A stretch of DNA of 64,000 bases, taken from NCBI GenBank assembly GCA_021371935.1, contig JAJFVF010000002.1, positions 310,001 through 374,000 on the forward strand. The letters run 5' to 3'. The first letter of the stretch is position 1; the number at the start of each line of letters is the position of its first letter. Made by a program: the position numbers and the translations under genes. The notes beneath the pieces were generated by a model. It was not told the origin of the DNA. It did not search any database and saw only the letters and a program-made list of their open reading frames with translations. Shown piece by piece: positions 5,146 to 9,686 of this stretch. The stretch is from a bacterium (GTDB lineage Bacteria; Armatimonadota; UBA5829).

Positions 5146-5174
5146 TTGACAAATCTCGCAGGCAGCACTATTAT
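5146..5174 (+). promoter_or_regulatory. Strong promoter of the riboswitch-controlled operon
   Basis: TTGACA (5146-5151), a 17 bp spacer and TATTAT (5169-5174). Transcription would begin near 5181, giving a leader of about 250 nt that contains the riboswitch and terminator. The -10 box lies inside a perfect 17-bp palindrome (AGCACTAT, t, ATAGTGCT at 5164-5180). A second palindrome (AGGTGC/GCACCT, 5182-5196) sits at the expected start site. Confidence 0.8.
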
Positions 5175-5249
5175 AGTGCTGAGGTGCTATGCACCTTCCC
5201 AATTCCACACGACTGTACAACTTAATAAAAAACCGAATAAAACAACAAA

Positions 5250-5354
5250 ACGCCGAGTTTCTTATGAAAGCGGAGGACCCGACCGATGAGGGGGCGAGTC
5301 CGGAAACGGAGGGGGAGCTTCCTACCCTAGCCCGACAGCTTACTCCGCAGGCGA
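5250..5354 (+). promoter_or_regulatory. Cyclic di-AMP riboswitch (ydaO-yuaA type)
   Basis: The leader RNA matches the ydaO-yuaA aptamer core in order: GCCGAG at 5252-5257, AAGCGGAGGACCC around 5268-5280, GGGGGCGAGTC at 5290-5300, the AGGGGGAGC...CCTACCC helix (5309-5327), and the most conserved 3' block CCCGACAGCTTACTCCGC at 5331-5348 followed by AGGCG. The outer helix pairs CGCC (5251-5254) with GGCG (5350-5353). Known ydaO riboswitches bind two c-di-AMP molecules and usually switch genes off. A promoter lies upstream and an intrinsic terminator follows 27 nt later, so the whole leader forms a complete transcription-termination switch ahead of the YhaO/YhaN operon. Confidence 0.92.
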
Positions 5355-5380
5355 GGCAGGAAGGTATTTTTTAACCACAC

Positions 5381-5411
5381 GCTGCGGTAGAGCATCTATC
5401 GCAGCTTTTTT
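5381..5411 (+). terminator. Intrinsic terminator / riboswitch expression platform
   Basis: The arms GCTGCGGTAG (5381-5390) and CTATCGCAGC (5396-5405) form a 10-bp stem (one G-U pair) around a 5-nt loop, followed by TTTTTT. It lies between the c-di-AMP aptamer and the start codon at 5433, so it is best read as the terminator controlled by the aptamer. Confidence 0.88.
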
Positions 5412-5432
5412 ATTGATGAGGGCACTGAGGGT

Positions 5433-6689
5433 ATGGCGTTCACATTCGTGCATGCTGCCGACCTGCATCTGGACTGTCCATTTGATAGTCTTGGGTATGT
5501 CTCGCCGGAGCTTGCATCAGTCCTGCAAGATGCCACATTTGCCTCGCTCGACAACATAGTTAAGCTTTGCCTTGTGCGCAAAGTCAACTTTGTTGTGATT
5601 GCCGGGGATGTATATAATTCCAGCGACAAAAGCCTGCGTGCACAGTTGAGGTTTCGGTCTGCTCTCGAAACACTTTCCGAGGCGGAAATCAGCTCATATA
5701 TAGTATGCGGCAACCATGATCCCTCAAACGGCTGGAGCGCAAGCCTGAACTGGCCTGAGCATGCCCACTTTTTCTCATCCAGTGAGCCTGAAGTGATGCC
5801 GGTTGTCCGCAATGGAAATTTGATTGCCACAGTCAACGGCATCAGCCATTCAAAACAAGGTATCACTGAGAATCTTGCTCTGCGGCTTTCGCACGACAAA
5901 GGCTCACCTTTTGCCATAGCTCTGCTGCACTGCAATTGCGGCCAGGCGGCAGCTTACGACCCATACGCCCCATGCACGCTTGCCGACCTTACACGTTCCA
6001 CTTTCGATTATTGGGCGCTGGGCCATATTCATAAGAGGATGATCCTGCACGAGAGCGCTCCACTTGTTGTCTACCCGGGCAACTCACAGGGTCTGAATCC
6101 CAAAGAAATCGGTGCAAAGGGCTGCTATGTTGTCAGCGTCGATGATTCGGGCAGCGCAAGCATGGAATTTGCGCAGACTAACGCGGTTCGTTGGCATCAA
6201 GAAGAGATATCTGCTGCAGGGATTGCGTCGGAGCAGGAGCTCATCGAGTCTCTGAGTGAAAGAGTGGGGGATATCAGGCAGTCAGCAGTCTGTCCGGTGC
6301 TGGTCCGCTTTCGCATTACAGGCAGAATGCCCCTCCACCGTTCCATTACCCGCACGTCAATACTCGACGATATCACAGCTGACCTGAGGCATAGCGCATC
6401 ACTGCAGGGCAACTTCGTCTGGGTCGAGTCGATTATGGATGAGACCAGGCCGGACATCAATATAGACGAGAGACGACTTTCCGAGGATTTCGTAGGTGAC
6501 TTTCTGCGTCTGGCTCAGGAGATGCGGCAATGCCCGGATCGTATTGCCGATCTCAGGAGCGCATTAGAGCCTTTATTTGAGCATGGAAGAGCTCGTGCAT
6601 ATCTCGGCCAACCGAGTGATGACCAGCTGTTGGCATGGCTGGATGCAGCGACGCTTTACGGCCTGGATGCTCTCACGGAGGAGACCTGA
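5433..6689 (+). CDS. Mre11/SbcD/YhaO-like metallophosphoesterase (DNA nuclease subunit)
   Basis: A 418-residue calcineurin-like phosphoesterase. Metal-binding motifs appear in order: DLHLD (residues 11-15), GDVY (near 66), GNHD (near 93) and GHIHK (near 198). This arrangement and length match YhaO/SbcD, the nuclease partner of a Rad50-like ATPase that processes DNA ends. The partner gene starts 2 bp after its stop. The start is fixed by the ATG before AFTFVHAADLH with a GAGGG site about 10 nt upstream. The gene sits directly behind a c-di-AMP riboswitch and terminator. Known: YhaO/YhaN function is less well characterised than SbcCD. Inferred: the pair is regulated by c-di-AMP. Confidence 0.88.
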   Translation: MAFTFVHAADLHLDCPFDSLGYVSPELASVLQDATFASLDNIVKLCLVRKVNFVVIAGDVYNSSDKSLRAQLRFRSALETLSEAEISSYIVCGNHDPSNGWSASLNWPEHAHFFSSSEPEVMPVVRNGNLIATVNGISHSKQGITENLALRLSHDKGSPFAIALLHCNCGQAAAYDPYAPCTLADLTRSTFDYWALGHIHKRMILHESAPLVVYPGNSQGLNPKEIGAKGCYVVSVDDSGSASMEFAQTNAVRWHQEEISAAGIASEQELIESLSERVGDIRQSAVCPVLVRFRITGRMPLHRSITRTSILDDITADLRHSASLQGNFVWVESIMDETRPDINIDERRLSEDFVGDFLRLAQEMRQCPDRIADLRSALEPLFEHGRARAYLGQPSDDQLLAWLDAATLYGLDALTEET

Positions 6690-6691
6690 TT

Positions 6692-8758
6692 ATGAAGATC
6701 ACTGAGCTTTTCATATCGGGTTTCGGCATGCTCTCCAAGGTGCGCATTGAGGGTCTTTCATGCGGCCTAAATATTTTTGTCGGTGACAACGAGGCCGGCA
6801 AAAGTACACTGCTTGCCTTCATCAGAGCGGTCTTTTTCGGCTTTGAGACTGCCCAGAGCAGAGAAAACCAATATAAGCCTGTTGCCGATGTCGAGCAAGG
6901 TGGCATCATAAAGCTGCATCTCGACCACAGCGGCCTGGATTATATCATAAAACGCGGACCCGGCAGAGCGCAGGGCATTGTCGAAGTGACGATGCCCGAC
7001 GGCTCCAAAGGCAGTGAAGAGGTCGTATCTCAACTTCTGCCGGGAGTGACCAAAGACCTCCATCGCAACGTGTTTGCATTCAGCCTGAACGAACTCCAAA
7101 AATTGGATTCTCAAGATGTCCGGTCGCGCATATACAGCTATGGCGCAGGCGCGGGCGATATTTCGGCGATCGATGTTGAAAAACAGATAGACTCTGAGAT
7201 GTCAGCTCTGTTCTCGCCCAGAACTGCCAAGCGAAAGATTAACACACTGCTGGCTGAGATTAGCTCATGCAATTCACATATCAAAGAGTTGAGCACGCTT
7301 AGCACCGACTACGATTCACTTCGCACGCAGCTATCGGGTATCAACAGTGACATAGAGCGCTATCAGCAGCAAAAGACCGACCTGGAGAGAAAAATAACCC
7401 ATCTGGAACATATGAAAAAAGCCTGGCCGAGTTGGGAGTCTTTATATAAAGCCAAAGCAGAACTCAGCCGCCTGCCCGATATCGACTCTTTTCCAGCAGA
7501 TGGCATCGGACGCCTGGAGAGATGCATTGAGAAGAAAGCCGACCTCTCACGCAAGCTCAACAACAAACGATCCGAACTTGAAACAGAGAAGCAAAATTGC
7601 CCAACCGATGTTTATACAAAGCCTGTGAGAAGATCGCCAATAAAGCCTGCCGCTGTAATCGCGGGCGCATGTCTGGTTGCGCTATCGGTAGCGTTCAGGG
7701 ATAACGCTCTGGCTGCTGCCGCTTTAGGGCTGCTGGGCATTGCAGCAGCATCAACAGGGTTTTTTGTGCAGTCGAGCCTCGATGCGTCGGAGCAGTCCCG
7801 GCGTGCCCAACTCATGCAATCGCATAAGAGCAATCTTGATAGGATATCATGCGAGATTGCGGACATTGAAAATGAGCTTGACCAAGCTGGAAAAGAGCAC
7901 GAGTCTCTTCTGCGTGCAGGCGGTTCCGCCGACGAGGAAAATTTCCGAAAGCGAAGTGGAGTATATTCCGAACGCGAGCGGATCAAATCGGATATTACAC
8001 GCCTGAAAGCCGATATAGAGCTTATTGCAGGCCGCGAGCATGCCGAGAGCCTAAAGTCTGATCTTGAATCGACTGAACTTGATTCGATCCAGTCAGAGCA
8101 CTTGAACAAGCATAATGAGCTTGACAGGCTTGCCGGAGATATTTCCGACCTGACCGAGAAGCGCGGGCGGCTTATCCAGCGCATAGCCGAGATTGAGAGG
8201 AGTGAGGAACTCTCAGCCGCATTATTGCAGGCAAGGACACTGAGGGCGCAGTTGGAGAAACACGCATCCGACTGGGCAGTAAAGGCAATCTGCAAATTGC
8301 TAATGGAACTGACACGTCAGAAGTATGAACGTGAAAAACAACCACGGGTGATAAAGTCCACATCTAGCTTTTTAGGTCGGTTCACTTCCGGCGCATATTC
8401 GCGGGTGTTTTCTCCTCTTGGTCGGGACGAAATGGAGCTTGAAACCCCCGAAGGCATCCGCAGAGACGTATCAAAACTCTCTCGCGGCACCCGCGAGCAG
8501 CTATATCTGGCTCTGCGCTTCGGTCTGATCCTTGAGTATGGCCTTGTAGCCGAGCCTCTGCCGGTGATTATGGATGACATCCTTGTCAATTTCGACCCTG
8601 CCCGCTCACGTGCCGCTGCACAGGCTATAACTGAGCTTTCAGCATCAAATCAAGTTCTCTTCTTTACCTGCCATCCCGACGTTGCGGATATGTTTTCCGA
8701 ATTGGGCTCCTCTGCATCCAGATTTGAGATCAGAGACGGCCAGATTGCTCGGTTATAG
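6692..8758 (+). CDS. Rad50/SbcC/YhaN-like AAA ATPase
   Basis: A 688-residue SMC-type ATPase. I start at 6692 (MKITELFISGFGML), just behind GGAGGAG in the end of the previous gene. Walker A is GDNEAGKST near residues 31-39. Long coiled coils follow (about 170-310 and 370-520). They are separated by a hydrophobic stretch at about 317-360 that could form two membrane segments, as in YhaN. The C-terminal ATPase half has the signature LSRGTREQLYLALR and Walker B PVIMDDILVNFD. There is no CxxC zinc hook. With the adjacent phosphoesterase it should form a DNA-end processing complex, possibly membrane-tethered. Confidence 0.87.
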   Translation: MKITELFISGFGMLSKVRIEGLSCGLNIFVGDNEAGKSTLLAFIRAVFFGFETAQSRENQYKPVADVEQGGIIKLHLDHSGLDYIIKRGPGRAQGIVEVTMPDGSKGSEEVVSQLLPGVTKDLHRNVFAFSLNELQKLDSQDVRSRIYSYGAGAGDISAIDVEKQIDSEMSALFSPRTAKRKINTLLAEISSCNSHIKELSTLSTDYDSLRTQLSGINSDIERYQQQKTDLERKITHLEHMKKAWPSWESLYKAKAELSRLPDIDSFPADGIGRLERCIEKKADLSRKLNNKRSELETEKQNCPTDVYTKPVRRSPIKPAAVIAGACLVALSVAFRDNALAAAALGLLGIAAASTGFFVQSSLDASEQSRRAQLMQSHKSNLDRISCEIADIENELDQAGKEHESLLRAGGSADEENFRKRSGVYSERERIKSDITRLKADIELIAGREHAESLKSDLESTELDSIQSEHLNKHNELDRLAGDISDLTEKRGRLIQRIAEIERSEELSAALLQARTLRAQLEKHASDWAVKAICKLLMELTRQKYEREKQPRVIKSTSSFLGRFTSGAYSRVFSPLGRDEMELETPEGIRRDVSKLSRGTREQLYLALRFGLILEYGLVAEPLPVIMDDILVNFDPARSRAAAQAITELSASNQVLFFTCHPDVADMFSELGSSASRFEIRDGQIARL

Positions 8759-8854: not shown

Positions 8855-8883
8855 TTGACAAGGCGCATTATATAGATTATAAT
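8855..8883 (+). promoter_or_regulatory. Consensus promoter of the GntR operon
   Basis: TTGACA (8855-8860), 17 bp, TATAAT (8878-8883): a perfect housekeeping promoter. Transcription would begin near 8890, inside the palindrome at 8884-8908, which suggests strong basal expression blocked by a bound repressor. Confidence 0.85.
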
Positions 8884-8921: not shown

Positions 8922-9686
8922 ATGGCCATTCAGCAGATTACAAACAATCATTTATATGAAGCTGTCTATGAAGCTCTCCGAGATAGAATAATAGCTGGGG
9001 ACCATCAACCCGGTGATGCGCTGCCTTCGGAACCAAAACTCAGGGAAGAGTTTGGAGTCAGCACGATCACTGTCCGCCGAGCGATACATGAGCTGGCGCT
9101 CGATGGCTTGGTCGAACCCAGGCAGGGTGTCGGCAATATAGTGCGCCGGCCTGCAGATAGCAGTGTAGTGATCGGCATGTCCAGTTTTACTACCGATGTC
9201 GCTCACGGCAGGCTCAGGCTTGTTCGTACACTGCTGGTCGACGAAACTGTCTCTGCTGCATCGGACACAGCCGAAAGACTGCAGGTGCAGCCTGGTTCGA
9301 TGCTGAGACGCTTAGTCCGGCTCGATAGCGAAGGCAATGCACCTCTCTCTATTGATGAAGTCTTCATACCACCCGTGCTTGCTTCGGTAATAACAAGTGA
9401 TATTGCAGCATCGCCTACATTCATGCATCTCTGGCAGGAAACCTCAGGGCTACAGTTTGTTCGCACGCAGTATGAGATATGGGCAGAGAAGTCATCTCCT
9501 GACGATCAACGGACCCTGCAGATCGATCCGGAATGCCCGGTGCTGGTTACCGGCGAGCTTATTCAAGATAATCAAAGCAGGCCGTGCGCGTGGATTGTAA
9601 GTCGATACAGAGCCGACAGAGGCAGGCTCTCGGGAACAGTTGTGCTGGCGCAAAAGAAGACCAAACGCGGAGTAATTGGAGAGTAG
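8922..9686 (+). CDS. GntR/HutC-family transcriptional regulator
   Basis: A 254-residue regulator. The N-terminal winged helix (about residues 8-75) has the family signature DRIIAGDHQPGDALPSEPKL and STITVRRAIHEL. The remainder (about 90-235) is a UTRA ligand-binding domain (LQVQPGSMLRRLVRL, PLSIDEVFIPP). HutC-type regulators normally bind a pathway metabolite and then release DNA. The gene is first in a run with the ceramidase-like gene (2 bp gap) and the aminotransferase gene, and a palindrome overlaps its own start site. Inference: an autoregulated local repressor of the catabolic genes behind it. Confidence 0.9.
   Translation: MAIQQITNNHLYEAVYEALRDRIIAGDHQPGDALPSEPKLREEFGVSTITVRRAIHELALDGLVEPRQGVGNIVRRPADSSVVIGMSSFTTDVAHGRLRLVRTLLVDETVSAASDTAERLQVQPGSMLRRLVRLDSEGNAPLSIDEVFIPPVLASVITSDIAASPTFMHLWQETSGLQFVRTQYEIWAEKSSPDDQRTLQIDPECPVLVTGELIQDNQSRPCAWIVSRYRADRGRLSGTVVLAQKKTKRGVIGE

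Follow-up and report, generated by a model that had tools for sequence, protein, structure and literature searches.

What does a riboswitch for cyclic diadenosine monophosphate (c-di-AMP) do in front of genes for an Mre11/Rad50-like nuclease/ATPase pair? This study was concerned with that question at one locus of an Armatimonadota bacterium (GTDB lineage UBA5829; GenBank assembly GCA_021371935.1). The window analyzed is a stretch of 64,000 nucleotides, positions 310,001 to 374,000 of contig JAJFVF010000002.1, and all coordinates below refer to it. Its place in Armatimonadota agrees with a locus of another genome of the phylum, which matches a named Chthonomonadales record without a difference over 4257 bases. 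An earlier note, made from the sequence alone, had described a promoter, a ydaO-type aptamer, an intrinsic terminator and a yhaO-yhaN gene pair at this locus, and had proposed that the c-di-AMP synthase DisA links them to DNA repair. Our analysis makes it fairly probable that the leader is a ydaO-class c-di-AMP riboswitch which acts as a transcription-attenuating OFF switch of a two-gene operon, encoding an Mre11-like protein and a Rad50-like, probably membrane-anchored, ATPase.

The aptamer was identified with the Rfam covariance model RF00379, which gave a single Rfam match across the 64-kb window, on the forward strand at 5241-5368. This match scored 73 bits against a gathering threshold of 38 (E 4.9e-15), and the model was complete from position 1 to 134. 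The aptamer announced by the earlier note is thus present. Its limits of 5250-5354 delimit the aptamer core, although the full extent is larger. A local model, R1, was built from 35 of the 39 sites in the class; L045 and L072, which have large insertions, and L073 and L040 were omitted. The window aptamer, itself a row of the R1 training set, scored 110.3 bits against this model.

The arrangement recurs in related genomes. RF00379 identified the 39 sites in 21 of the 28 genomes of the class, and seven of these sites represent one subtype, a cassette of a TTGACA promoter, a 5' hairpin with a C-rich motif, the aptamer and a strong terminator. The seven terminators have energies of -14.6 to -20.0 kcal/mol and all begin 6-11 nt past the aptamer; among the other class sites, 8 of 32 had a terminator of -10 or better within the next ~110 nt. 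The 5' hairpin and C-rich motif, which lie outside the aptamer, were found in all seven cassettes and in none of the 32 other sites. The patterns for this 5' motif and for the promoter were derived from the seven cassettes themselves, so only the count of 0 in 32 serves as a test. Three cassettes precede yhaO-yhaN: those of the window, of genome G004 (80% protein identity) and of G001 (64%), which are three species of one genus. Two more, in G006 and G010 (two species of a sister genus), precede a different Mre11/Rad50-like pair; its nuclease and that of the window share 24-27% identity. The aptamers of these five gene-linked cassettes scored 68.8-80.3 bits. The genes upstream are not the same in G000/G004, G001 and G006, and those downstream also vary between species, so a shared neighbourhood does not account for the linkage. 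G005 has the nearest relative of this second pair (55%), next to a uracil-DNA-glycosylase-like gene and with no switch. Because each genome contains one to three such pairs among about three thousand genes, chance joining to a second, unlike Mre11/Rad50-like pair would have, by rough inference, a probability of about one in a thousand. In the phylum, the Mre11-like profile was matched at 1e-15 in 112 of 291 genomes and the aptamer in 120 of 291. From these lists, compared by eye, at least five aptamers have an Mre11-like gene as same-direction neighbour, the five above; one divergent aptamer/nuclease pair occurs in G024, where the nuclease match is weak. The complete switch ahead of an Mre11/Rad50-like pair, as originally described, is therefore kept in three species of the genus and, with a second pair, in two species of the sister genus. 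A known class of riboswitch has here been put to a genuine and conserved use on an unusual target, one that is confined to this lineage.

The promoter and the terminator also hold as first placed. A scanner run over the window found 12 promoter-like sites, with 6.5 expected, and 7 terminator-like sites, with 5.5 expected. For this reason both calls rest on position and conservation, as both elements are present in all seven related cassettes. The end of the T-run at 5411 and the ATG at 5433 are separated by 21 bases, which leaves no room for the small gene that the earlier note had named as a possible true target; this candidate was ruled out. An open reading frame of 61 amino acids across the aptamer (5189-5374) was judged to be due to chance, and by eye the gaps of the seven-cassette alignment cross it. 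A perfect 17-base palindrome, AGCACTATTATAGTGCT, covers the -10 box at 5164-5180 and occurs at a single place in the genome. It is shortened in G004 and lost in G001, and could be a candidate operator.

The two proteins were examined for their family membership. The PDB sequence matches of the nuclease were Mre11 and SbcD, and eight sequences all share its residues D10, H12, D59, N94, H95, H166, H198 and H200, taken here as the metal site of Mre11. The ATPase contains a Walker A and a signature motif; its AAA_27 domain (PF13514) is encoded directly downstream of the Mre11-like gene, and no PDB sequence match was obtained for it at 0.001. The domains thus bear out the predicted nuclease/ATPase pair, although the ATPase gene starts at 6689, overlapping the yhaO stop by 1 base, and not at the ATG at 6635 of the mechanically called open reading frame. 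Both proteins scored below the NCBI cut-offs for SbcD, Mre11 and Rad50 (for example, 44.6 for the nuclease with the SbcD model TIGR00619, cut-off 77.65), which makes "YhaO/YhaN-like" the proper level of naming. No zinc-hook CxxC was found in the 689 residues of the ATPase. Two adjacent hydrophobic segments lie in the middle of the coil, at YhaN residues 316-360 (window ~7634-7768), and similar segments are present in the relatives of G001, G005 and G006. These segments suggest a membrane hairpin at the coiled-coil apex, and the ATPase is probably membrane-anchored. Another contig of the same genome encodes a more typical SbcD/SbcC-like pair without a switch (its SbcD scored 68.3 against 77.65), which indicates that the switch-linked pair is accessory. 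The operon probably has a role in DNA-end processing. A defence-system reading was rejected: PADLOC matched neither nuclease, and both ATPases gave weak ATPase-domain matches only (best 41.6 and 46.1 bits).

The source of the signal does not agree with the proposal of the earlier note. The single DAC-domain protein of the genome is CdaA (TIGR00159, 217.1 bits, cut-off 188.8), with a score of 31.1 against a cut-off of 201 bits for the DisA model. By eye it is followed by a CdaR/YbbR-like open reading frame, and G006 and G010 likewise have CdaA. Thus the host makes c-di-AMP, but the genome has no DNA-scanning synthase to close a loop with DNA repair, and DisA as the bridge is rejected. The genome contains four RF00379 sites, and the other three precede genes for an MscS-type channel, an octopine-dehydrogenase-like protein and a STAS protein, an arrangement that suggests a signal of osmotic or cell state.

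The promoter, aptamer, terminator and gene pair and their conserved linkage are established, and from here on ligand binding, the sign of the switch, DNA-end processing and CdaA as the signal source are inferred. Transcription would start near 5181, and the RNA would fold into the 5' hairpin and the aptamer. Bound c-di-AMP would keep the aptamer's 3' strand (5345-5353) within the aptamer stems; the hairpin at 5381-5405 would form and RNA polymerase would stop at 5406-5411. In the absence of ligand, CCGCAG at 5345-5350 would pair with CTGCGG at 5382-5387, the terminator would be pre-empted and yhaO-yhaN would be made. High c-di-AMP would then lower expression of an accessory DNA-end-processing complex, and the operon would follow the osmotic or wall state, with CdaA supplying the signal, and not the scanning of DNA. 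In the computed folds, the 3' strand of the aptamer paired with the terminator arm when the window transcript was cut inside the terminator, and the terminator hairpin appeared when the leader was complete. In Bacillus subtilis, binding of c-di-AMP to the ydaO switch ends transcription (PMC9960051), and OFF is thus the default expectation here.

Several observations weigh against the OFF-switch reading and are considered here together with the rival explanations. The fold stability of the leader is ordinary (z -1.38). Strong anti-terminator pairing appeared in the folds only for the window and its near-twin: the expected pairs between aptamer strand and terminator arm were 7.6 for the window, 8.2 for L062, 2.8 for L068, 0.6 for L069 and 0.3 for L054, and 0.2 and 0.1 for two cassettes that precede no gene. 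All five gene-linked cassettes are placed above both of these, a weak ordering since it comes from seven rows of which two are near-identical. The duplex energies of the two strands were not clearly better than those of shuffled sequences, for the window or for most others (0.021-0.19 with the arm shuffled, 0.030-0.34 with the aptamer strand shuffled). An idea formed by eye, that the gene-less cassettes have no anti-terminator complementarity, was not upheld; the duplex of G002 was among the best (-16.9). In addition, the Rfam consensus and all but two of the 35 aligned class aptamers (33 of 35) have A at position 5341; the window has U, which may weaken ligand binding. The aptamer could therefore be degenerate or bind another ligand, so that the leader is a constitutive attenuator and a regulator on the -10 palindrome controls the operon. 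That U5341 is shared with L062 only (2 of 35), and that the palindrome is found nowhere else in the genome, would fit this explanation, as would the entry of Bacillus pumilus yhaO-yhaN under the LexA/SOS regulon (PMC3896406). However, the aptamer scores well above threshold and its core is otherwise complete, CAGCUAAC is retained in the cassettes of G001, G006 and G010, and the cassette of G001 has no palindrome. We regard a degenerate aptamer as improbable.

The linkage of switch and operon is also restricted. YhaO-type genes were found at 1e-40 in 41 of the 291 phylum genomes, and YhaO relatives 33-44% identical occur in many phyla. Among 30 listed yhaO loci of the phylum, where the window's own locus was tested as the window itself, model R1 found the switch only in the three of the window's genus and not in the other 27. 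It was absent from all 80 named yhaO loci, which come from many phyla and some of which include little upstream sequence; R1 does reach distant switches, since of 15 whole genomes to which such named loci belong it found sites in 9. The suggestion to look in yhaO leaders thus yielded the switch in two further species of this genus and in no named locus, and the switch as a general feature of yhaO was rejected. The linkage is a local invention, because yhaO elsewhere, in the named loci and in the tested rest of Armatimonadota, is without it. This lineage specificity, with the changing neighbours on both sides, would also fit chance neighbours, in which case the gene that the switch served has since disappeared or moved, and the switch does not act on yhaO-yhaN. 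The short distance from terminator to ATG and the recurrence of the pairing in five genomes with two unlike nuclease families argue otherwise, and this explanation is very unlikely. Lastly, two of the seven cassettes, L071 in G002 and L059 in G013, are gene-less. Their aptamers (71.3 and 80.7 bits) are as good as the gene-linked ones, their promoters retain TTGACA, and their terminators have energies of -18.3 and -20.0 kcal/mol, respectively. Identity to the window (L071/L059) is 71%/62% in the promoter and 5' leader, 80%/76% in the aptamer and 14%/14% past the terminator. No sense open reading frame of at least 100 amino acids follows for at least 700 nt (about 800 bases in G013). The gene that follows in G002 is convergent, with its end near the terminator, so that read-through would be antisense to it. 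These features, and the position of the 5' hairpin and C-rich sequence outside the aptamer, would fit a small RNA that stands alone and senses c-di-AMP, whether its action is in trans, as a sponge or as antisense, with the downstream Mre11/Rad50-like operons read through in some species. A trans-acting RNA does not predict that five of seven cassettes precede Mre11/Rad50-like pairs of two unlike families at different loci, and the five-row fold shows a single compensatory pair for the 5' hairpin, which, by eye in the alignment, is built differently in G006 and G010. Recent loss of the genes, ahead of any decay of the switch, accounts for the two gene-less copies; the G013 genome is also only 67% complete. 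The small RNA is thus doubtful. The same doubt applies to its wider form, in which the cassette would be a self-contained c-di-AMP-sensing RNA gene, selected even without a gene, that was joined in two genera to two unlike membrane-anchored Mre11/Rad50-like complexes and so ties envelope or osmotic state to DNA-end processing. After the cassette, short repeats similar to GAGATTCTTCGCTTCGCTCAGAATGACG were seen in the intergenic sequence, past 1650 in L059 and between terminator and yhaO in L062.

Table. Features of the yhaO-yhaN leader and operon (window coordinates).
Feature	Position	Strand	Evidence
Sigma-70-type promoter TTGACA-17-TATTAT	5146-5174	+	Promoter scan, 11/12 consensus; TTGACA invariant in 7/7 related cassettes
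5' hairpin at presumed transcript start, then C-rich TTCCC	5182-5197	+	Five-row fold; minimum free energy fold of leader
c-di-AMP (ydaO/yuaA) aptamer RF00379	5241-5368	+	Rfam covariance model, 73 bits
Departure from consensus, U for A	5341	+	CAGCUUAC instead of CAGCUAAC
CCGCAG of aptamer 3' strand, candidate anti-terminator partner of 5382-5387	5345-5350	+	Sequence; 7.6 expected pairs
Intrinsic terminator	5381-5411	+	Stem 5381-5405 (11 pairs, 6 G-C), T-run 5406-5411
Probable ribosome binding site TGAGGG	5417-5422	+	Read from sequence, inferred
Mre11-like calcineurin phosphoesterase, yhaO type, 418 amino acids	5433-6689	+	Metallophos PF00149, 45.3 bits, cut-off 21.5
Rad50/SMC-like ATPase, yhaN type, 689 amino acids	6689-8758	+	AAA_27/AAA_23, 65.3 and 42.7 bits, cut-offs 22 and 27 (scored on the mechanical open reading frame beginning at 6635)

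Downstream of the operon, a promoter with 12/12 consensus (8855-8883) lies ahead of the gene that comes next, which encodes a GntR/UTRA regulator and is located at 8922. Other c-di-AMP riboswitches of Armatimonadota were found before a variety of genes. One precedes hisB (L218:811-1413, NCBIfam), with look-alikes by eye in L219, L221, L226, L230, L231 and L232, and this placement accounts in all for 7 of 20 sampled sites. Another precedes lysine 2,3-aminomutase (L222:336-1745; TIGR03820, 630.7 bits), an enzyme that provides a step to the osmolyte N-acetyl-beta-lysine; by eye the same gene occurs in L036 and after mscS in L001. A dapB-type reductase follows the switch in L224 (719-1597; TIGR00036, 210 bits) and, by eye, in L227 and L234, and a serpin gene (L053:893-2149; PF00079, 229.7 bits) follows a switch with a terminator. 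In L004, L044, L041, L051, L042, L043 and L048 the start codon of a STAS-domain-like gene (assigned by domain search for L004 and by eye for the others) lies 3-9 nt past the aptamer and there is no terminator, and for these reasons such aptamers probably control translation. The aptamers of L045 (1501-1674) and L072 (2238-2495) have large insertions in the folded domain and are still above the cut-off.

The locus was also compared with known systems. It shares with the B. subtilis ydaO leader (PMC9960051) a full-length aptamer followed by an intrinsic terminator. It differs in its Mre11/Rad50-like target, its conserved 5' hairpin domain and the two gene-less copies. The targets of the class named in the sources consulted are transporters of K+, amino acids and osmolytes, and cell-wall and osmotic-shock genes (PMC7266159, PMC9960051, PMC3766115, PMC5575661). 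The yhaO-yhaN (sbcE) operon of Bacilli has the same domain pair in the same order, but the aptamer is absent from the named loci. The active-site residues of Mre11, the Walker A motif and the signature motif are shared with SbcCD and archaeal Mre11-Rad50; here the scores are below the cut-offs and two hydrophobic mid-coil segments replace the CxxC zinc hook. Riboswitch-derived small RNAs include SreA/SreB and Rli55 of Listeria. As in those, a riboswitch and terminator could exist as a short RNA, whereas here only the gene-less copies hint at one. A literature search at the level of listings found no case of a small RNA derived from a c-di-AMP riboswitch. A search at the same level for a c-di-AMP switch before a DNA-repair operon found no report, which does not establish absence from print.

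If the OFF-switch reading is true, RNA-based control by c-di-AMP would reach DNA-end processing, beyond osmolytes, potassium and the cell wall and without DisA, and this extension would lie in Armatimonadota, a phylum with almost no genetics. The intact gene-less copies offer a direct test of a stand-alone c-di-AMP riboswitch RNA. In addition, c-di-AMP and DNA integrity, which are usually joined through DisA, would become separate ideas, and the question would shift to why high c-di-AMP would lower an accessory Mre11/Rad50-like complex.

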